From an uncultured delta proteobacterium (lineage in GTDB: Bacteria > Myxococcota_A > Polyangia > Polyangiales > Polyangiaceae): DNA of 64,000 bases. Made by a program: the position numbers and the translations under genes. The notes under the pieces were generated by a model. It had not been told where the DNA came from. It did no database searches and saw only the letters and a list, made by a program, of their open reading frames with translations. Every line of letters starts with the position of its first letter. Within the stretch, counting starts at the first letter, position 1. Shown here one piece after another: positions 55,230-64,000 of this stretch. Where the stretch lies: NCBI GenBank assembly GCA_903906315.1, contig CAIVJW010000073.1, positions 1-64,000 on the forward strand, written 5' to 3'.

Positions 55230-55380
55230 ACGGCGCCGCTTGGTGTCGGTCGAATGGGCCACGGCGCCGTCCGCCTCACCGACGGCCGCGCGCTCGTCGC
55301 AGGCGGCTGGGTCGGGGGCAACTGCGTGAGCGCGGACTCGGAGAGGTTCGACCCGGCGACGGCTCGGCGCTCGCCGTGGG
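55230..55380 (+). pseudogene. Kelch-repeat gene fragment
   Basis: GHGAVRLTDGRALVAGGW and SERFDPATARRSPW make one Kelch unit (the GRVLVAGG and ERYDPATxxW pattern of bacterial Kelch lipoproteins). There is no signal peptide upstream and no second repeat downstream; the frame runs straight into the kinase remnant. Confidence 0.55.
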
Positions 55381-55472
55381 CGGGGGCTTCGCCTCCGTCG
55401 ATCGCCGTGGCAGACTGGCATTCTCGTCGCGATCGGCCTGCTTCGGCGCCGATCTCGACGGTCGGCGCGTTG

Positions 55473-56340
55473 ATGGACGACCCGGATCGCGAGTCCGCCG
55501 AGGGGCGCGTCGGGCAGACGCTGCGCGGGAAATGGCGCCTCGATCGGGTGATCGGCGTGGGCGGCATGGCGGCCGTCTACGAGGCGACTCACCGGAACGG
55601 CAAGCGCGTCGCCGTGAAGATGCTCCATCCGTCGGTGTCGCACGACGCCGAGGTGCGTCGCCGCTTCCTGCGCGAGGGCTACGTCGCCAACTCGGTCGGG
55701 CACCCCGGCGCCGTGATCGTCGACGACGTGACCGACGACGGCCGCGCGTTTCTCGTGATGGAGCTCTGCGACGGCGGGCCGATCGATGGCCGGATGCGCG
55801 CACGATGGCGGCGGCGATCCGGGACGCGACGCCCGCGATCGCAGCGGACGCCCGAGGGCCGAGGCCGTCGACCCGACGGCGGCGACGCTCCTGTCGACCA
55901 GCGCGGGCGACACCCGCCCTGCGGCTCGCGCGCGGCCCGCGCCGGTGACGACCGCGCGGCCCGTGTCCGCGGGGGCTTCGGTGCGGATCCCGCGCGACCG
56001 GCGCGCGCCGATGGGGATCGGGGCCGTCCTCCTCGTCGTCGGCGAGGTGACCGCGGCCGTCACGCTGCGCAGGGCCGATCGTGGCGGCGCGACGGCGACC
56101 GCAGCCGCCGAGGCGACGACCGTCGCGCCCCTCCCCTCGACGCCGTCCGTGGCGCCCGCTGCGACCGTTGCCATCGCGTCGACCGCGACCGCGCCAGCCG
56201 CTCCGAACGCAGAGCCGCCCCCGTCGACGTCCCCCGCGGCCTCGGCCCCGGCCGCTCGGGGCGCGTCGGTCGGCGCGAAGCCACCTCGGGCCACCGCACC
56301 CTTCCGCGTCGACGCGCCTCTGCCTCGATCGACGGCTTGA
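55473..56340 (+). pseudogene. Ser/Thr kinase gene with its catalytic core deleted
   Basis: ATG 55473 opens a kinase N-lobe: TLRGKWRLDRVIGVGGMAAV (Gly loop), AVKMLHPSV (Lys) and AFLVMELCDG (hinge). At about 55785 the frame changes and the sequence jumps to the C-terminal juxtamembrane part, a transmembrane helix ([18 protein letters not shown]) and an Ala/Pro-rich tail ending at 56340. The catalytic loop, DFG and whole C-lobe are missing, so an internal deletion with frameshift has destroyed it. It resembles the intact kinase at 48022 in layout. Confidence 0.75.
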
Positions 56341-56640
56341 TGTCCGTCGCTGCGGTGGCCGATAGATCGCGCGGCAGATGGACCTTGAACGTGGTCCCCT
56401 TGCCCTGCTGCTTGGCGGTGAAGAAGGGCTCGAAGATGCGCGCCCGCGTTTGCTCGTCCAGGCCGCAGCCCGTGTCCGAGACCGCAAGCTGCACATACGA
56501 CCCGGGTTGCACCGCCATGTGGCGTGCCGCGTACTCCTCGTCGATTTCCACGTTGGACGTCTCGATAGTCAGCTTGCCCCCCTCGGGCATGGCGTCGCGG
56601 GCGTTGACCACGAGGTTCGTGAGCAACGGCTCGATCTGGC
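56341..56640 (-). pseudogene. Histidine kinase ATPase-domain fragment with G2 box deleted
   Basis: Minus-strand frame: [20 protein letters not shown] (N box), [20 protein letters not shown] (G1 and F box), then [19 protein letters not shown]. In intact kinases of this type the stretch between the GKGT and the final GxGTTFKVYLPR holds the GLGLSTVYGIV block. Here it is gone, as if deleted between two GxGT codons. No HisKA part or start precedes it. Confidence 0.75.
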
Positions 56641-56798
56641 TCGAGGAACGCGGCGTCGACCGGCTTCGCGCGCAACATGACGGGCGCGCACTGCGACGCC
56701 CGATGCACGAGCTCGCCGTCGGGACCTGCTGACCTCGGCTTTCCGTGCCTGACCGATGTTGCATCGACAGCATGGACGCGCGCGCCTGCTTCTGGCCA

Positions 56799-56970
56799 GA
56801 CCCTCGCCGAAAAGGATTTGCAGCAACCTCCCGCGGGACTCGTGGGCCACCCGGAGCAGAAGCTCACCACGGAGGCACGGAGGCAGATCAAATCTGAACT
56901 CTGTGCCTCCGTGGTGAAAATCACGGCTCTTGGACGGTCGCCAAGGCGGCAGCGCTTTTCGGCGAGGGTC
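56799..56970. mobile_element. MITE-like element, 172 bp, second copy
   Basis: GACCCTCGCCGAAAAG (56799-56814) is repeated in inverse at 56955-56970 (16 bp perfect). Flanks TGGCCA (56793-56798) and TGGACA (56971-56976) fit a 6-bp target duplication with one change. The interior contains CACCACGGAGGCAC and its inverse GTGCCTCCGTGGTG (14 bp). It aligns along its whole length with 47663-47842. Confidence 0.78.
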
Positions 56971-56976
56971 TGGACA

Positions 56977-57088
56977 GCGTAAGTCCTCGCCCGCCCCCGT
57001 CATCCCCCGGCCGCGCGGCGCGACGACTCGCGCGCGCACGGCCACGCCGCGACGGGCGCCGGTGGCACCACGGTCGACTCCGCTCCGT
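56977..57088. other. Short non-coding stretch
   Basis: Between the MITE-like element and the recombinase remnant; nothing recognised. Confidence 0.4.
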
Positions 57089-57588
57089 TCAAACCGACTT
57101 CGCCCTGTCGCCCAGAGCCCCGAGCAGGGCGAGGCTCGCGCAAGCCGTACGAAGGGCCGCGACCAGGACCGAGCTCAGCATCACGTACGGCTCGCGGCGT
57201 CGCTTGGAAGCGCGCACGTGCCCGAGCATCCGCTTGGCGTCGAGGGCCCCGACCTCGAGCCGCACGACCTCGCTCACGCCAGGGCCCGCGCCGCACGCGA
57301 GCCTCCGCATGGCGCGGTGCTTCTTCGTCGAGACCGCCCCGAGCAGCCGCTCGACCTCGGAGCCGGAGAGCGCCTTCGGATGCCGCATGCGTGCCAGCTC
57401 GCACACCTCGACCGGCCGGCGCAGCGTGACCTCGTAGAAGACCGGCTCGACGCCGCGTAGACGTCGACCGTCGCCGGGCACACCTTCCCCTTTCGAATCA
57501 GGTGGAGCAGGTACGCACGGATCTCCGCCGCGACCGTCCCGGACGCCCACTTTCCAACGCGCTCGAGGAACCTGCACACGCACCGCAC
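57089..57588 (-). pseudogene. Frameshifted and truncated tyrosine recombinase/integrase
   Basis: The minus strand begins with CRFLERVGKWASGTVAAEIR and AYLLHLIRKGKVCPATVDVY in one frame and continues at about 57452 in another with FYEVTLRRPVEV, LSGSEVERLLGAV, HRAMRRLACGAG, VSEVVRLEV and RREPYVMLSS. This is the SAM-like N-domain and first part of the catalytic domain of a phage/IS91-associated tyrosine recombinase. The catalytic Arg of GLRVSE is lost (GPGVSE), and the His-x-x-Arg and Tyr boxes are missing. Clearly dead; a relic of the mobile DNA that shaped this region. Confidence 0.8.
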
Positions 57589-57780
57589 GTACGTGCCGCC
57601 CCCTCACGCTCGCCGTGTGTTTCGTTGGCGTGCGTGCTAACATTGATTCTCCGTTTGCTCGCAAAGGGCGTCCACGTTAGGCGCGGGTGTGTGCCGACCC
57701 GCGGGCGACCCTGGAATGGCCGACCGGCCGGGCTCCGTGTCCGGCGCACGCGTCGGCTCGGTCGAACGGGGAGCCCTCCC

Positions 57781-60264
57781 ATGAGTGACTCTCGCGCTAT
57801 CGTCACCGCCCCCGATGAGCTGCGCCGCCGCCGCGTCGGCGTCGCCCTCGAGTCCGCCGACTTCGCTGTCTGCGCCGCTGGCGACGGCGTCGAGGCGCTC
57901 GCCGGCTTCGGCTCGGAGCGGCCCCAGGTGATTCTCCAGGGAATCTCGGTCCTCGACGCGGACGTGGAGCCGCTCGGCGCGGTCCGCGCGGAGCGGGGGG
58001 GCGATGCCGCGTGGCTCGTGGACGCCGCGCGCGCGCGCGTCGCGAGCACGGCGCCGCCCGCGGGGATCGCGCGGCCCGTCCAACGCCTCCTGGTCGTCGA
58101 CGACGAACCCATCCAGCTCCGGATGACGGCGGCGCGGCTCACCGCGGCCGGATTCGAGGTGCGCACCGCGCGCCACGCGGGCGAGGCGCTCCGCGTCGCC
58201 CGCCAGGATCCGCCGGACGCCGTCGTGAGCGACGTCCTCATGCCCCGCGTCGACGGCTTCGAGCTGGCCCGCGCAATCCGGCGTCACCCGGCGTTCGCCT
58301 CGATCCACATCGTGCTCGTGTCGTCGCACTACGTCGATCACGCCGACCGCTTGCTCGCGCGCGATGCCGGCGCGAGCGCCTTCGCCGAGCGAACGCCGAC
58401 GCTCGAGCACGTGCTCGCCGCGCTCGCCGCGTGCGCAGGCCGCCCGCCGCCCGGCGCGCCGGCGCCCGAGCCGAGCTTCGACCAGGCGCACGAGCGACGT
58501 CGCTCCGCGCAGCTCGAGCGCCAGGTCGCGACGAACGGCCTGCTCGGGCAGCGGTGCGCGCGGCAGGCCGCCGAGCTCGCCGTCCTGTCCGTCGTCGCCG
58601 ACGGGGTCCCCGACGAGGGGCTCGACGACGAGACGTTCGGGCGCTTGCTGCAGCGCTCGCTCGACGCGTGCGGGCTCGCGCAGGGCGCGCTCTACCTCGA
58701 TGACCCGGAGGGCGGCTTGCGCGTGCGCGCGGAGCACGGCCTGCCGAGCGCGGCGACCGTCGGTAGGCTCGGCGCCGGCGACTTCCTCGCGAGCTTGGTT
58801 CGCGAGGGCTCGCTCGTGACGCTGTCCTGCACCGCGCTGGCTGCGTCCCCCGCGCGAGCCCTGCTCGACGAGGCGGGCGCGGGCTCGGCGATCGTGGCGC
58901 CCCTCGTCGTCCGCGGCGAGCCCGTGGGCGCGCTCGTCCTCTTCTCGGCGGCGCCCGACGTCGCCCTCGGCGCGGCGGGGGGATCGGATCCGCTCGGCTG
59001 CGCGCGGGCGCTCGCCACGCAGCTCGGGCGCGTCGTCGCGCTCGACCGCGCGTTCGCCCGCGCGAGGGCGGAGGGGAGGCGCTATCGCGCGCTCGCGGGC
59101 CACGCCCCCGACGCGATCCTGCTCCTGCGCCCGTCCGGCGAGATCGTCGACGCGAACCTCGCGACCGGACGGCTCGCGGGCCTGCCCACGCAGCGCCTCC
59201 TGGGCCAGTCCCTGTTCGATCTCTTCGCCGCGTCGTCCGTCCCCACGCGCGAACGCCTCGCGGACCTCTGTGCGGGCGAGCTAGACGAGGTGTGGGGACT
59301 CGAGATCGAGCGGCCCGACGGCGAGCGCAGGCTCGTCGATGCCACGGCGTCGGTCGTCGGGGACTGGGGCGAGGCGCTGGTGCTGGTCCTCGTGCGCGAC
59401 GTGACCGCGCGCGAGCGGTCGCGGCGGCGGAGCGCGGAGGCCGAGCAGGTCGCGCACGTTGGCGCGTTCGCCTCGGCGGTCGCCCACCAGATCAACAGCT
59501 CGCTCACCTACGTGCTCGGCAACCTCGCGTTCCTCGGTGAAACGATCGCGCGCTTCGAGGCGAGGCGCGCCGCCCCGCAGGGCGCGTTCGGCCGGGGCGT
59601 GCGGGGGAAGCCGGACGGCGCCGACGAGCTCGCGAGCATCGCCGACGCCGCCGCCGACGCGCTCGAGGGCTGCGAGCGCGTGCGCGTCCTGGGCCGGGAC
59701 CTCGTCACGTACGGTGTCGTGGAGACGAGAGAGCTCCTGTCCGTCCCCCGGCTGCTCGAACTCGTGACCGCGATGGCGCGCCACGAGACTCGCTACGGCG
59801 CCCGCATCGAACGGGAGCTCGCGCGTGACGTGCCCGACATCCTCGGCAACGCGCCGTTGCTGAACCAGCTCTTCCTCTCACTCGTGCTCGACGTCGTCGA
59901 GGCGTCGAGGCGCGCCGATGGTTCGCGCACTCGCGTGGTCGTGCGGGTCGCCGCGGACCAAGGCGGCGTGTCCGTGGCGATCTTCGACGACGGCGCCCCG
60001 ATGCCCCTCGCTCCGCTCCTCGCCGGCCGGACCTCGTGGCGATCGCCGGCGGTGCGAGGGACGCCGCTCGAAGCGGCGGCAGACATCGTCCGCGCCCACC
60101 AGGGGCGCCTGATCGCGGGCTCGGTGGGCGACGGGGCCGTCGGCTGGACCGTGTGGCTGCCCTCGGCCGCGGCGAACGCCGTCGTCGACGACGACGACGA
60201 CTCGTCGTCGGCCCCCTCGTCGCACGTGACGCCCACTCGCGACGTTCGCCCCTCGATCTCGTGA
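57781..60264 (+). CDS. Multi-domain sensor histidine kinase-like protein with degenerate ATPase
   Basis: 827 residues. Order: degenerate receiver-like region (1-95); REC (about 102-220: LLVVDDEPIQLRM, VVSDVLMPRVDGFE, VLVSSHYVDHA, with the usual Lys replaced); GAF-like domain (about 275-430); PAS (about 438-550: YRALAGHAPDAILLLR); H box VAHQINSSLTYVLGNL with H569; then an HATPase-like fold whose N-box Asn is Asp (FLSLVLDVVEAS), whose DxGxG is DDGAP, and whose GTGLGL is GTPLEA. It probably cannot bind ATP normally, but H569 could still be phosphorylated by a partner. First gene of a four-gene set; stop overlaps the next start (GTGA at 60261). ATG 57781 follows GGGAG. Confidence 0.85.
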   Translation: MSDSRAIVTAPDELRRRRVGVALESADFAVCAAGDGVEALAGFGSERPQVILQGISVLDADVEPLGAVRAERGGDAAWLVDAARARVASTAPPAGIARPVQRLLVVDDEPIQLRMTAARLTAAGFEVRTARHAGEALRVARQDPPDAVVSDVLMPRVDGFELARAIRRHPAFASIHIVLVSSHYVDHADRLLARDAGASAFAERTPTLEHVLAALAACAGRPPPGAPAPEPSFDQAHERRRSAQLERQVATNGLLGQRCARQAAELAVLSVVADGVPDEGLDDETFGRLLQRSLDACGLAQGALYLDDPEGGLRVRAEHGLPSAATVGRLGAGDFLASLVREGSLVTLSCTALAASPARALLDEAGAGSAIVAPLVVRGEPVGALVLFSAAPDVALGAAGGSDPLGCARALATQLGRVVALDRAFARARAEGRRYRALAGHAPDAILLLRPSGEIVDANLATGRLAGLPTQRLLGQSLFDLFAASSVPTRERLADLCAGELDEVWGLEIERPDGERRLVDATASVVGDWGEALVLVLVRDVTARERSRRRSAEAEQVAHVGAFASAVAHQINSSLTYVLGNLAFLGETIARFEARRAAPQGAFGRGVRGKPDGADELASIADAAADALEGCERVRVLGRDLVTYGVVETRELLSVPRLLELVTAMARHETRYGARIERELARDVPDILGNAPLLNQLFLSLVLDVVEASRRADGSRTRVVVRVAADQGGVSVAIFDDGAPMPLAPLLAGRTSWRSPAVRGTPLEAAADIVRAHQGRLIAGSVGDGAVGWTVWLPSAAANAVVDDDDDSSSAPSSHVTPTRDVRPSIS

Positions 60265-61382
60265 CGGCGCTCCGTCGGGTCCCGCCCTCGCTCGACGCGG
60301 TGCTCCGCGACGTGGCCTTCGATCACCTGTGGCGGAGCTCGTCGGTGTTGGCGCTCGTCCTCGACGCGCAGGGCGTGGTCATCGACGCGAACGCGCGCGC
60401 CGAGGCGCTTTTCGACGGCCCTGTCGTCGGGCGACGTGGTGTCGACCTCGTGGGCGTGGCCGGCGCGGCGGCTCGGAGCACGCTTGCCCACCTCGGCACG
60501 CGCGGTGGTGCCGTCGAGACGGTGCGGCTCACGTTCCGCGATCTCGGCGGCGCGACGCTCGTGCTCGGCGAGGCCGACGCCGGCGAGCTCGCGCGCGTCG
60601 AGCGCGACCTCGCAGCCATGCACGCCGACCTGCAGAACCTCACGCGCGAGGTCGTCCGCAAGAACCGGGCGCTCGCGCGTCTCGGTGAGCTCAAGAGCCG
60701 CTTCGTCGGCATGGCGGCGCACGACCTCCGCAAGCCGACCGGCGTGATCCTCGGCTACGTCGACCTCGTGCTCGACGGCGCCGGCGCCGCGCTGTCCGAC
60801 GATCAGCGCCGGCTCCTCGGCGCCATTCGCTCGTCGTGCTCGTTCATGGCGCGCGTCATCGACGACTTCCTCGACCTCGCCGTCATCGAGGCCGGCCAAC
60901 TGACGCTGCACCTCGCCCCCAGCGATCCCGGCTCCGTCGTTCGCGCGGGCGCGCGGCGCGCGGAGGAGCACGCGCGGCGCGCCGACGTCACCGTCTCGCT
61001 CGACCTCGAGCCCGGCACGGCCCGGCGCCTCGACGCCTCGAAGATCGAGCAGGTCGCGATGAACCTCGTCGGCAATGCGATCGAGCACTCGCCGCCCGGC
61101 GGCCGCGTCGTCGTCGCGTCGCGGCTCGAGGGCGCGGCATTCACTCTGACGGTGAGCGACGAGGGCCCGGGCATCGACCCCGACGATCTCGCGCGCCTCT
61201 TCCGGCCGTTCGAGAGGGGCGCCCACGGGGGTGTCGCCCGCGTCGGGTCGTTCGGGCTCGGTCTGTCGATTTCGAAGATGATCATAGACGCGCACGGGGG
61301 CAGCCTCGACGCGGCGTCGGGCGCGCACGGTGGGACGGTCTTCGTCGTGCGCCTGCCCGGCGCGGGGGAGCGGATCGCATGA
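60261..61382 (+). CDS. PAS-domain sensor histidine kinase
   Basis: 373 residues from GTG 60261. Short PAS-type sensor (about 15-110: LVLDAQGVVIDANARAEALF), a coiled coil (VERDLAAMHADLQNLTREVV), HisKA with FVGMAAHDLRKPTGVILGY (H154), and an intact HATPase: NLVGNAIEHSPPGG, DEGPGIDPDDLARLF, GSFGLGLSISKMII. Soluble; probably the true kinase partner of the preceding degenerate one. Coupled to the next gene by ATGA (61379-61382). Confidence 0.92.
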   Translation: MTALRRVPPSLDAVLRDVAFDHLWRSSSVLALVLDAQGVVIDANARAEALFDGPVVGRRGVDLVGVAGAAARSTLAHLGTRGGAVETVRLTFRDLGGATLVLGEADAGELARVERDLAAMHADLQNLTREVVRKNRALARLGELKSRFVGMAAHDLRKPTGVILGYVDLVLDGAGAALSDDQRRLLGAIRSSCSFMARVIDDFLDLAVIEAGQLTLHLAPSDPGSVVRAGARRAEEHARRADVTVSLDLEPGTARRLDASKIEQVAMNLVGNAIEHSPPGGRVVVASRLEGAAFTLTVSDEGPGIDPDDLARLFRPFERGAHGGVARVGSFGLGLSISKMIIDAHGGSLDAASGAHGGTVFVVRLPGAGERIA

Positions 61383-62473
61383 GCACGGCAGAGGAGCGGC
61401 GCGCCACGGCGGCGGCCCTCACCCTCCACACGGCACGGATCGCGGAGCTCGCGACGGACCTCCAGTACGCCCGGCAGCCCGAGGTCTGGGAGAGGTACGG
61501 CGTGCGCGGGCGCGAGCTCAGCGTCCGCGACATGACGTACCACTTGCCCTTCCTCGGCACGGCGATCGTCGCCGACGAGCCGCGCGTCTTCGCCGACTAC
61601 GTCGCCTGGATCCGGCACCTCTTCGCGCGGCTCGGCTTCGAGGACCCGGCGGCGGCGGTCCTGCTCGCGTGCATGCGGGACGCGATCGCCGAAGCGCTCC
61701 CGGGGGGCCTCGGCGCCGTCGCCGTGCCCTACATCGAGGCCGGCGTCGCCGAGCTCGCTGCGCCGCTCCGCCGCTTCGCCTCGTTCCTCGAGGACGACGG
61801 GCACCCGCTCCGCCCCCTCGCCCGGCTCTACCTCGACGCGCTGCTCAAGAACGATCGCGCGGCGGCGAGGACGCTCGTCCTCGACGCGGTCGCGCGGGGC
61901 GTCGGGCTGCGCGAGGTGCTGCTGCGCGTGCTGCAGGACGTCCAGCGCGAGGTGGGGCGCCTCTGGTTTTCGGCGGAGATCTCGGTCGCCCGCGAGCACT
62001 ACTGCACGGCGGTCACGCAGGACGTCATCGCGCACCTCTACCCGCGCATCATGGACACGCCGCGCGTCGGTCGGCGGATCGTCGTCGCCTGCGCCGCCGG
62101 CGAGAGCCACGACCTCGGCGCGCGCATGGTGGCCGACTTCTTCGAGCTCGCCGGGTGGGACGCCGTCTTCCTCGGGCGCGACACGCCGACCGCCGCGCTC
62201 GCGGAGGCGGTGCGCGAGCACCGGCCCGACGTCCTCGGGGTCTCGGCGAACATGTCGTTCCACTTCCCGGCGGTCCGCGACGGCATCGCCGCCGCGCGGC
62301 GCGCCGACCCGACGGGGCGCCTCCGGGTGCTCGTCGGCGGTTATCAGTTCGACGCCACGCCGGGGCTCTGGACGCGCACCGGCGCGGACGGCAGCGCGAG
62401 CGACGCCGACGCCGCCGTCGCCACCGCCGAGGCGCTGGTGGCCGCGGTGCGCGGCCAGGGCGTCGCCTCGTGA
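61379..62473 (+). CDS. Cobalamin-binding sensor protein with CarH-like photochemical motif, no DNA-binding domain
   Basis: 364 residues. Residues 1-130 form an all-helical domain (LSVRDMTYHLPFLGTAIVAD, RVFADYVAWIRHLFARLGF) often preceding B12 domains. Residues 145-225 are the four-helix cap with W196-x9-E206-H207 (LWFSAEISVAREH), the Wx9EH motif that in CarH packs on the adenosyl group. Residues 232-358 are the Rossmann B12 domain: E242-x-H244-x-x-G247 (lower-ligand His), SANMS near 289 and GG at 320-321. No MerR or other DNA-binding part exists, so output must be by protein contact, most likely with the flanking kinases. GTGA overlap with the next gene. Confidence 0.9.
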   Translation: MSTAEERRATAAALTLHTARIAELATDLQYARQPEVWERYGVRGRELSVRDMTYHLPFLGTAIVADEPRVFADYVAWIRHLFARLGFEDPAAAVLLACMRDAIAEALPGGLGAVAVPYIEAGVAELAAPLRRFASFLEDDGHPLRPLARLYLDALLKNDRAAARTLVLDAVARGVGLREVLLRVLQDVQREVGRLWFSAEISVAREHYCTAVTQDVIAHLYPRIMDTPRVGRRIVVACAAGESHDLGARMVADFFELAGWDAVFLGRDTPTAALAEAVREHRPDVLGVSANMSFHFPAVRDGIAAARRADPTGRLRVLVGGYQFDATPGLWTRTGADGSASDADAAVATAEALVAAVRGQGVAS

Positions 62474-64000
62474 GCACGTCGGAGTCGATCCTCGTCGTCG
62501 ATGACGACGAGGCGCAGCGCGAGGTCTTCGTGCTCGTGCTCACTGCCGCGGGCTTCGACGTGCGCGCCGCGACGGGCGGCGAAGAGGCCCTCGCGTTCGC
62601 GATCGCCCGGCCGCCCGCGCTCGTCCTCGCCGACGTGCAGATGCCGGGGCTCGACGGCCCCGCGCTCTGCCGGAGGATCCGCGCCGAGCCGGGCCTCGAG
62701 CGGACGCTCGTGATCCTCGCGTCGGGGGCCCGGACGACCTCGGACGAGCAAGCGGAGGGCCTCGAGTCCGGCGCGGACGGGTACGTGGCGTTGCCGGTCT
62801 CGAACCGCGAGCTCGTCGCCCGCGTCCGCTCGATGCTCCGCGTCCACCGCGCCGAGGCCGCGCGCGCGGCGGCGGAGGGCGCGAGCCGGGCGAAATCGGC
62901 GTTCCTCGCGAGCGTCTCGCACGAGCTCCGCACGCCCCTCAACGCGATCATCGGCTTCTCGGACCTGCTGCTCGAGGGCCACGCGGGGCCGCTCCTGCCG
63001 TTGCAGCGGGAGTACCTGACCGACGTCGCGGCGAGCGGGCGCCACCTTCTCGCGCTGGTGGACGACGTGCTCGACCTCGCGAAGATCGAGGCAGGCCGCG
63101 TGGAGCTCGACTGGGCCCCGGTGCGCCTCGAGGACCTGGCGCGGTCCGCGGCCGGCGCGCTCCGGCCCCTCGCGCTCGCGCAGCAGGTGTCGCTGGTCCT
63201 CGACGTGCCGGGCGCGCTGCCGCGGCTCGTCGCCGACCCCGTCCGCCTGACGCAGATCCTCTACAACCTGCTCTCGAACGCCCTGAAGTTCACGCCCGCG
63301 GGCGGGCGCGTCACGCTTCGCGCCGCGGCGGCAGCGGGCGGCGTGGTCCTCACGGTCGAGGACACCGGGGTCGGCATCGCCCCCGGGGACGCGACGCGGC
63401 TCTTCCACGAGTTCGAGCGCGTTCGCCCGAGCGACGGCCACGGGCCCGAGGGGACGGGCCTCGGCCTCGCGCTCACCAAGCGCCTCGTCGAGCTGCACTG
63501 CGGCACGATCCGGGTCGACAGTGCGCCCGGCCACGGGTCGAGCTTCCAGGTGTCACTTCCGTGTCGGCCGCCCGACGCCCCGCCCCTGTCGACGGGCGAC
63601 GACGTCGACCCCGCCGGGGGCCATCCGGATCTCGCTGCGCCCCGCCCTAGGCCCCGTTCCATCTTGCTGGTCGAGGACAACCGGCTTAACGCGAAGCTCG
63701 TGCGATCGGTCCTCGGCGCGCGCGGTCACGAGGTGACCGTCGCCGGCACCCTGGCCGAGGCCGAGCGCCTCTGGCGGGCGGGAGGGGTCGACCTGGTCCT
63801 GCTCGACCTCGCATTGCCCGATGGCCGCGGCGAGGCCCTGCTCGAGGCGATCCGGGGCGACGCGCGCTCCGCGCGGCTGCCGGTGGTCGTCGTGACGGCG
63901 TGCGCGCTCCGGGGCGATCGGGAGCGCTTGCTCGCGATCGGCGCCGACGAGTACCTCACGAAGCCGATCGCGCCGGCCATCCTGTGCGCGCGCGTCGAGG
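62470..64000 (+). CDS. Hybrid histidine kinase REC-HisKA-HATPase-REC, cut by window end
   Basis: At least 510 residues from GTG 62470, open to the window edge. REC1 (about 7-122: ILVVDDDEAQR, D55 in LADVQMPGLDG; the usual Lys position reads ALPVS); HisKA with ASVSHELRTPLNAIIGF (H151); HATPase with NLLSNALKFTPAGG, DTGVGIAPGD and GTGLGLALTKRLV; REC2 from about 398 (ILLVEDNRLNAKLV, LLDLALPDGRGE, VVVTACALRG, LTKPI), missing only its last helix. No membrane segment. Last visible member of the coupled operon; more genes may follow. Confidence 0.92.
   Translation, partial: MSTSESILVVDDDEAQREVFVLVLTAAGFDVRAATGGEEALAFAIARPPALVLADVQMPGLDGPALCRRIRAEPGLERTLVILASGARTTSDEQAEGLESGADGYVALPVSNRELVARVRSMLRVHRAEAARAAAEGASRAKSAFLASVSHELRTPLNAIIGFSDLLLEGHAGPLLPLQREYLTDVAASGRHLLALVDDVLDLAKIEAGRVELDWAPVRLEDLARSAAGALRPLALAQQVSLVLDVPGALPRLVADPVRLTQILYNLLSNALKFTPAGGRVTLRAAAAAGGVVLTVEDTGVGIAPGDATRLFHEFERVRPSDGHGPEGTGLGLALTKRLVELHCGTIRVDSAPGHGSSFQVSLPCRPPDAPPLSTGDDVDPAGGHPDLAAPRPRPRSILLVEDNRLNAKLVRSVLGARGHEVTVAGTLAEAERLWRAGGVDLVLLDLALPDGRGEALLEAIRGDARSARLPVVVVTACALRGDRERLLAIGADEYLTKPIAPAILCARVE

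Follow-up and report, generated by a model that had tools for sequence, protein, structure and literature searches.

The 64,000-nucleotide (nt) window analysed here, from contig CAIVJW010000073.1 of an uncultured member of the Polyangiaceae, carries near its 3' end an operon of four genes (g1-g4), in which a protein combining a globin with a cobalamin (B12)-binding domain, g3, is encoded among histidine kinases. We consider it somewhat probable that g3 is a photocobilin-type sensor, dependent on adenosylcobalamin (AdoCbl), that provides a probably light-controlled input to a kinase phosphorelay. Both the binding of AdoCbl by g3 and its response to light are predicted from the sequence.

Domain structure and conserved residues of g3

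The initial annotation had described g3 as a B12-binding protein that keeps the motifs Wx9EH (W196, E206, H207) and ExHxxG (E242, H244, G247) and lacks a DNA-binding domain. Both motifs were verified, and no MerR domain was found in g3. Its picture of a CarH/LitR-like protein merely short of DNA binding did not hold, since the N-terminus is occupied instead by a globin of the phycobilisome type. Because this globin (residues 2-121) is joined to the B12 domain, g3 is a globin-B12 fusion of the photoglobin/photocobilin kind (PMC10979010, PMC11796333, PMC10151467).

The B12-binding half is closest in sequence to the photocobilin structures 8J2W, 8J2X and 8J2Y and to CarH, and, with its two B12 subdomains compared across 213 columns, it superimposes on SasPcob (8J2W) at a root-mean-square deviation of ~2.1 Å. 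The Rossmann subdomain carries G266xxxP270 in addition to E242-x-H244-xx-G247, and all four light-response signatures defined with SignatureFinder (GxxW, EH, GxxH and GxxxP; PMC11796333) are present, as G193-W196, E206-H207, G241-H244 and G266-P270. Residue conservation was counted over 84 aligned globin-B12 proteins. W77, W196, E206, H207, H244, G247 and G266 are identical in all of them and P270 in 83, and the invariance of W196, E206, H207, H244 and G247 argues that the Wx9EH motif is not a product of chance. W196 is followed by Phe, whereas CarH has a His there, on which its bis-His light state depends; for g3 a photocobilin-like light state would therefore be expected.

The same two B12-binding domains also occur in corrinoid methyl-transfer carriers (MtaC/MtbC-like), and g3 could in principle be such a carrier placed between kinases by chance. 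We regard this as highly improbable: the NCBIfam matches to MtgC and MtbC are weak and far below the cut-offs, the operon contains no methyltransferase gene, Wx9EH is intact and kinases are the neighbours in 68 of 80 relatives.

In the globin half, a profile built from 41 relatives matched allophycocyanin (E 1.4e-8) and the C-terminal globin of SasPcob (E 9e-7). The predicted model of this domain (pLDDT 95) aligned with allophycocyanin at a TM score of 0.79, and its fold also matches that of the biliverdin-binding smURFP; the AlphaFold2 (AF2) model of the full-length protein reached a pLDDT of 96.3 and a pTM of 0.91. Two pocket residues stand out, both matching main biliverdin contacts of SasPcob. 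D51, the counterpart of Asp270, is present in 83 of the 84 aligned proteins, and W77 corresponds to SasPcob Trp296, which contacts both ring D of biliverdin and the corrin (PMC10979010). Both assignments use an offset of 6 between the 8J2W chain index and the numbering of that paper, which is our own calculation. Position 48 (g3 numbering) is Ser in 53 of the proteins and Cys in 18.

A conserved histidine kinase partner

The gene neighbourhood was analysed in the best 80 of 254 relatives obtained from one scan of GTDB contigs with a four-member alignment; only top-scoring proteins were kept, and the set is skewed to close relatives. It includes members of Chloroflexota, Thermodesulfobacteriota, Bacteroidota, Acidobacteriota, Planctomycetota, Gemmatimonadota, Spirochaetota, Pseudomonadota, Bacillota and other phyla, as well as two bins labelled as archaeal. 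Gene prediction and domain assignment relied on profile models and a simple gene-calling routine of our own.

All 80 relatives are globin-first fusions. In 68 of them the next gene 3', in the same orientation, encodes a histidine kinase, typically of ~400 amino acids (aa); the interval is 30 nt or less in 61 of these loci, and the two genes overlap by 4 nt in 33. The background frequency of kinases, taken from neighbourhood genes at least four places away, is 27 of 523. In 32 of the 68 loci the kinase is followed by a receiver-domain protein. The link to kinases is thus not unique to this genome, and it extends over many phyla. For the globin-B12 and kinase cassettes on contigs assigned to archaea, L130 (Lokiarchaeota) and L132 (Methanomicrobiales), transfer or a binning error may be involved.

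At their N-termini the downstream kinases have in common a domain of ~110 aa, after which comes a coil (ELSRLNNELVxLQRELAKKNxELERLN). The kinase of the cultured Desulfoferrobacter suflitae (L093) is one example that carries this domain. This domain was not recognised by a Pfam scan or by a PDB sequence search. A model of it matched, across 1222 locus genes, at position +1 alone, save for two close exceptions. In the whole genomes of 50 carriers (G059-G108, the hosts of L055-L130; many are incomplete bins), 50 copies were detected; for 47 a globin-B12 or B12-only gene lies no more than 500 nt away. Because the +1 kinases served to train the model, the fair test is this genome-wide count, in which other copies would have shown. 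We suggest that the signal may be received by this domain.

The domain also occurs outside kinases. In three Adhaeribacter species it is encoded without a kinase or any other output domain (L081:9067-9588, L092:9057-9572, L113:9023-9517), and in an Anaerolineales bin it is joined to GGDEF instead (L086:9005-10042); in all four loci it lies immediately 3' of the globin-B12 gene.

Fused and split forms

About nine of 284 Myxococcota genomes drawn encode a full-length globin-B12 protein. Two genomes of this phylum carry the globin, the B12 domain and a histidine kinase in a single chain (L173:8625-10826, 733 aa; L174:1075-3324, 749 aa), and a third chain, L172:8334-10577, joins B12 domain and kinase with a weak globin. 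Read from the sequences, the position of Asp51 is Glu in L173 and Val in L174, while the Trp is retained.

The proposal of the initial annotation that the B12 protein acts as an input subunit of kinases is supported by the conserved synteny, the single-chain fusions and the near-exclusive partner domain; what had to be given up was the underlying picture of a CarH without its DNA-binding part.

Split forms were observed as well. In L047 (minus strand), L049 and L180 a B12-only gene stands beside a separate globin gene, an arrangement that recalls the BBAG-2 and B12 gene pair of Myxococcales; in L047 the pair is followed by two coupled hybrid kinases. A further variant, L014:1015-2559 (514 aa; the same gene in L043), has two tandem globins before the B12 domain and is followed by two coupled kinases.

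The operon of the window

The four open reading frames (ORFs) lie on the same strand (57781-64047) and each junction is a 4-nt overlap (Table 1); re-examination of the sequence bore out their coordinates and the GTGA/ATGA/GTGA overlaps. The last gene, g4, ends outside the window, at contig position 64047.

Table 1. Domains and motifs of g3 and genes of the operon (window coordinates)
Feature	Position	Strand	Remarks
g3 globin domain, residues 2-121	61382..61741	+	allophycocyanin-like; PF00502 Phycobilisome, E 1e-6, over cut-off
g3 S48-x-R50-D51	61520..61531	+	aligns with phycobiliprotein CXRD bilin motif; D51 = SasPcob Asp270
g3 W77	61607..61609	+	= SasPcob Trp296 by alignment
g3 four-helix B12-binding_2 subdomain, residues 149-220	61823..62038	+	PF02607, E 3e-13
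g3 Wx9EH, W196...E206-H207	61964..61999	+	all three residues in 84/84
g3 Rossmann B12-binding subdomain, residues 233-347	62075..62419	+	PF02310, E 2e-22
g1	57781..60264	+	REC (and degenerate N-terminal REC-like stretch)-GAF-PAS-degenerate histidine kinase, 827 aa
g2	60261..61382	+	kinase, PAS-like, HisKA, HATPase_c, 373 aa; GTG start over g1 stop (GTGA)
g3	61379..62473	+	globin-B12 protein, 364 aa; ATG over g2 stop (ATGA)
g4	62470..64000 (window end; stop 64047)	+	REC-HisKA-HATPase_c-REC hybrid kinase, 525 aa; GTGA junction

The kinase assignments of the initial annotation agree with the domain analysis. In g1, called a degenerate kinase, Pfam recognised Response_reg (E 5e-20), GAF and PAS, with HATPase_c reaching just E 0.24, under the cut-off. 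Its H-box (AVAHQIN) retains a phospho-acceptor-like His, the position of the N-box reads SLVLDVVEA, and motif inspection revealed no recognisable N, G1 or G2 box. The PAS kinase g2 and the hybrid kinase g4 are both intact by Pfam; in g4 the N, G1 and G2 boxes are canonical, and its C-terminal REC shows ED/LDLALP/TKP.

When g2 was compared with 157 neighbourhood kinases, each of its top eight matches was a kinase encoded 3' of a globin-B12 gene; g2 also has the AAHDLR H-box of the partner kinases (GMAAHDLRKP) and their coil. The best matches of g4 are hybrid kinases that accompany globin-B12 cassettes in other phyla (L094, L059, L080). The gene 3' of g3 in the window is an accessory-type hybrid kinase, not a cassette-type one, and the cassette-like kinase, g2, lies 5'.

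Such an arrangement, with g1 deprived of its ATP-binding motifs, the gene order scrambled and apparent remnants in the upstream flank, might suggest a decayed or neutral signalling cluster, perhaps no longer working. This seems improbable to us, given that the catalytic or ligand motifs of g2, g3 and g4 are intact, that the genes are tightly coupled and that pseudo-kinases commonly retain their sensor part. The flank in question, 5' of g1 (55300-57600), contains ORFs that resemble remnants, mostly judged by eye: a truncated Ser/Thr kinase-like start (plus strand), a histidine kinase ATPase fragment (minus strand) and an integrase-like fragment (minus strand).

Proposed mechanism and alternative readings

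In the mechanism that we envisage, g3 would most likely be a dimer holding AdoCbl in the dark. Green light would cleave the Co-C bond and loosen the interface formed by W196, E206 and H207; the loosened g3 would then touch g2, a soluble kinase, in a different way, which would change autophosphorylation. By analogy with SasPcob and AbDPcob, in which the lit B12 protein changes cyclase activity, it is the activity of g2 that g3 most likely alters. The signal would proceed through the hybrid kinase g4, with its intact C-terminal receiver, and the pseudo-kinase g1, and would end at a regulator encoded elsewhere, as the four-gene operon contains no gene for an output regulator. The direction of the effect and the order of the relay are what we infer.

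Several observations weigh against this reading. On the kinase side, g2 is located upstream of g3, not downstream as in the cassettes; in the tree it did not group firmly with the partner-kinase clade, though nearly all of its nearest rows are partner kinases; the dedicated N-terminal domain (model A4) had no match in the window genome; and the similarity of the g2 N-terminus to that domain is weak (hhalign probability 23%). On the chromophore side, no PF01126 heme oxygenase was found in the window genome, which is 98.55% complete (this family was the one heme oxygenase type looked for, here and in the carriers), and no phytochrome, as a sign of bilin supply, was found there either. Finally, the record titles of many carrier genomes point to an origin in sediment, in the subsurface or in anoxic material, where there is perhaps no light.

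Since g2 lies upstream and is devoid of the dedicated N-terminal domain, the operon of the window is an odd variant of the kinase-coupled globin-B12 cassette. As a tentative generalisation, kinase-coupled globin-B12 proteins may constitute a phylum-spanning class of two-component photoreceptors with a dedicated partner domain, as yet without a name, that passes the signal to a kinase and, in a single relative, to a diguanylate cyclase instead. The globin pocket would in most hosts be without biliverdin made by a heme oxygenase and would hold another ligand or none, and the window would represent a rearranged variant.

As regards chromophore supply, a cobalamin adenosyltransferase is present in the window genome, and AdoCbl can therefore be made from imported or own cobalamin. 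The case of biliverdin is different. PF01126 was detected in 6 of the 50 carrier genomes; the 44 without a canonical heme oxygenase include the cultured isolates Adhaeribacter, Perlabentimonas and Paenibacillus. With the window genome and these 44 carriers lacking the enzyme, biliverdin as the second chromophore of this organism is doubtful. Among the Myxococcota genomes, heme oxygenase was not significantly enriched with the globin-B12 gene (2 of 9, compared to 19 of 275; Fisher p 0.14), and Cys at position 48 showed no pattern as a marker of genomes with heme oxygenase. Anaerobilin was considered as a substitute bilin and rejected: HutW (TIGR04107) gave nothing over the cut-off in 51 genomes, and the matches below it are probably HemN/HemW-like relatives.

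These results bear on a stricter form of the photocobilin reading, with which its confidence overlaps, namely that g3 senses green and red light through AdoCbl and biliverdin, as SasPcob does. The equivalents of Asp270 and Trp296 are kept, the globin fold matches allophycocyanin and smURFP, and a non-canonical heme oxygenase or imported bilin might be the source. The distribution of PF01126, the failure to detect an anaerobilin synthase and the replacement of opposite-chain His137 of SasPcob by Ala273 in the g3 alignment argue against it, and we consider a two-chromophore sensor unlikely.

The main rival is a module that senses cobalamin itself (the AdoCbl level, the corrinoid form or the redox state) rather than light; the globin would then act as a lid or mediate interaction, and B12 status would be what the kinases report. 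With a canonical heme oxygenase lacking in most carriers and in the window genome, there may be no second photochromophore; a dark or anoxic origin is suggested by several record titles; and the one-chain relatives lose D51 and keep W77, a corrin contact in SasPcob. Against this stand the Wx9EH motif, tied to AdoCbl photochemistry and found in 84 of 84 proteins, the presence in 83 of 84 of D51, needless for a plain lid, and the photolability of AdoCbl in characterised proteins with the Wx9EH signature (PMC10979010, PMC11796333). We judge cobalamin-state sensing to be a possible, though rather unlikely, explanation and retain the photocobilin-type sensor as the favoured one.

Significance and comparison with known systems

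The synteny described above points, in many phyla, to a concrete partner for stand-alone photocobilins, namely a soluble histidine kinase that has a dedicated N-terminal domain; with this partner named, two or three purified proteins would suffice for a direct test of the sensor role. The lack of canonical heme oxygenase in most carriers raises the question of what, if anything, occupies a phycobilisome-type pocket with near-invariant Asp and Trp. A natural AdoCbl-controlled kinase would serve as a green-light tool for two-component systems.

The photoglobin study by Schneider et al. of 2022 reportedly predicted that globin-B12 fusions sense light as components of signalling systems in prokaryotes, and it is reported to describe associations with signalling domains; it may thus have priority for the kinase link. 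In the literature searched, which did not cover that study, no published account of the conserved kinase partner or its domain was found.

The closest characterised systems are the photocobilins SasPcob and AbDPcob (Zhang et al. 2024, PMC10979010; PDB 8J2W, 8J2X, 8J2Y). Like g3, they combine a phycobilisome-type globin and a CarH-type B12 domain in one chain, with the same W, EH, GxxH and GxxxP, and SasPcob shares the Asp and Trp of the bilin pocket. The globin is C-terminal in SasPcob and N-terminal in g3; both orders have already been noted for photocobilins (PMC10979010). In SasPcob and AbDPcob the lit B12 protein alters how active a cyclase is, whether fused or separate, and a stand-alone photocobilin can act by contact on a separate enzyme; the role of stand-alone photocobilins was called less clear, and kinases are not mentioned in the text (PMC10979010). 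In contrast to a photocobilin with a fused cyclase, g3 is accompanied by separate histidine kinases, in a genome without a canonical heme oxygenase.

The MerR-type AdoCbl photoreceptors CarH and LitR have in common with g3 a B12 domain with Wx9EH and ExHxxG, but g3 lacks a DNA-binding domain, possesses a globin and has Phe in place of the His after the Trp. The Pre-2 cluster of Myxococcales, composed of a bilin reductase, a B12-binding protein and the BBAG-2 globin (Rockwell et al. 2023, PMC10151467), likewise associates a photoglobin-related globin with a B12-binding protein; there the two are encoded by separate genes with a bilin reductase, whereas in g3 they are fused and accompanied by kinases. 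The kind of sensor is already known, and what may be new here is its conserved kinase partner and the domain of that partner.

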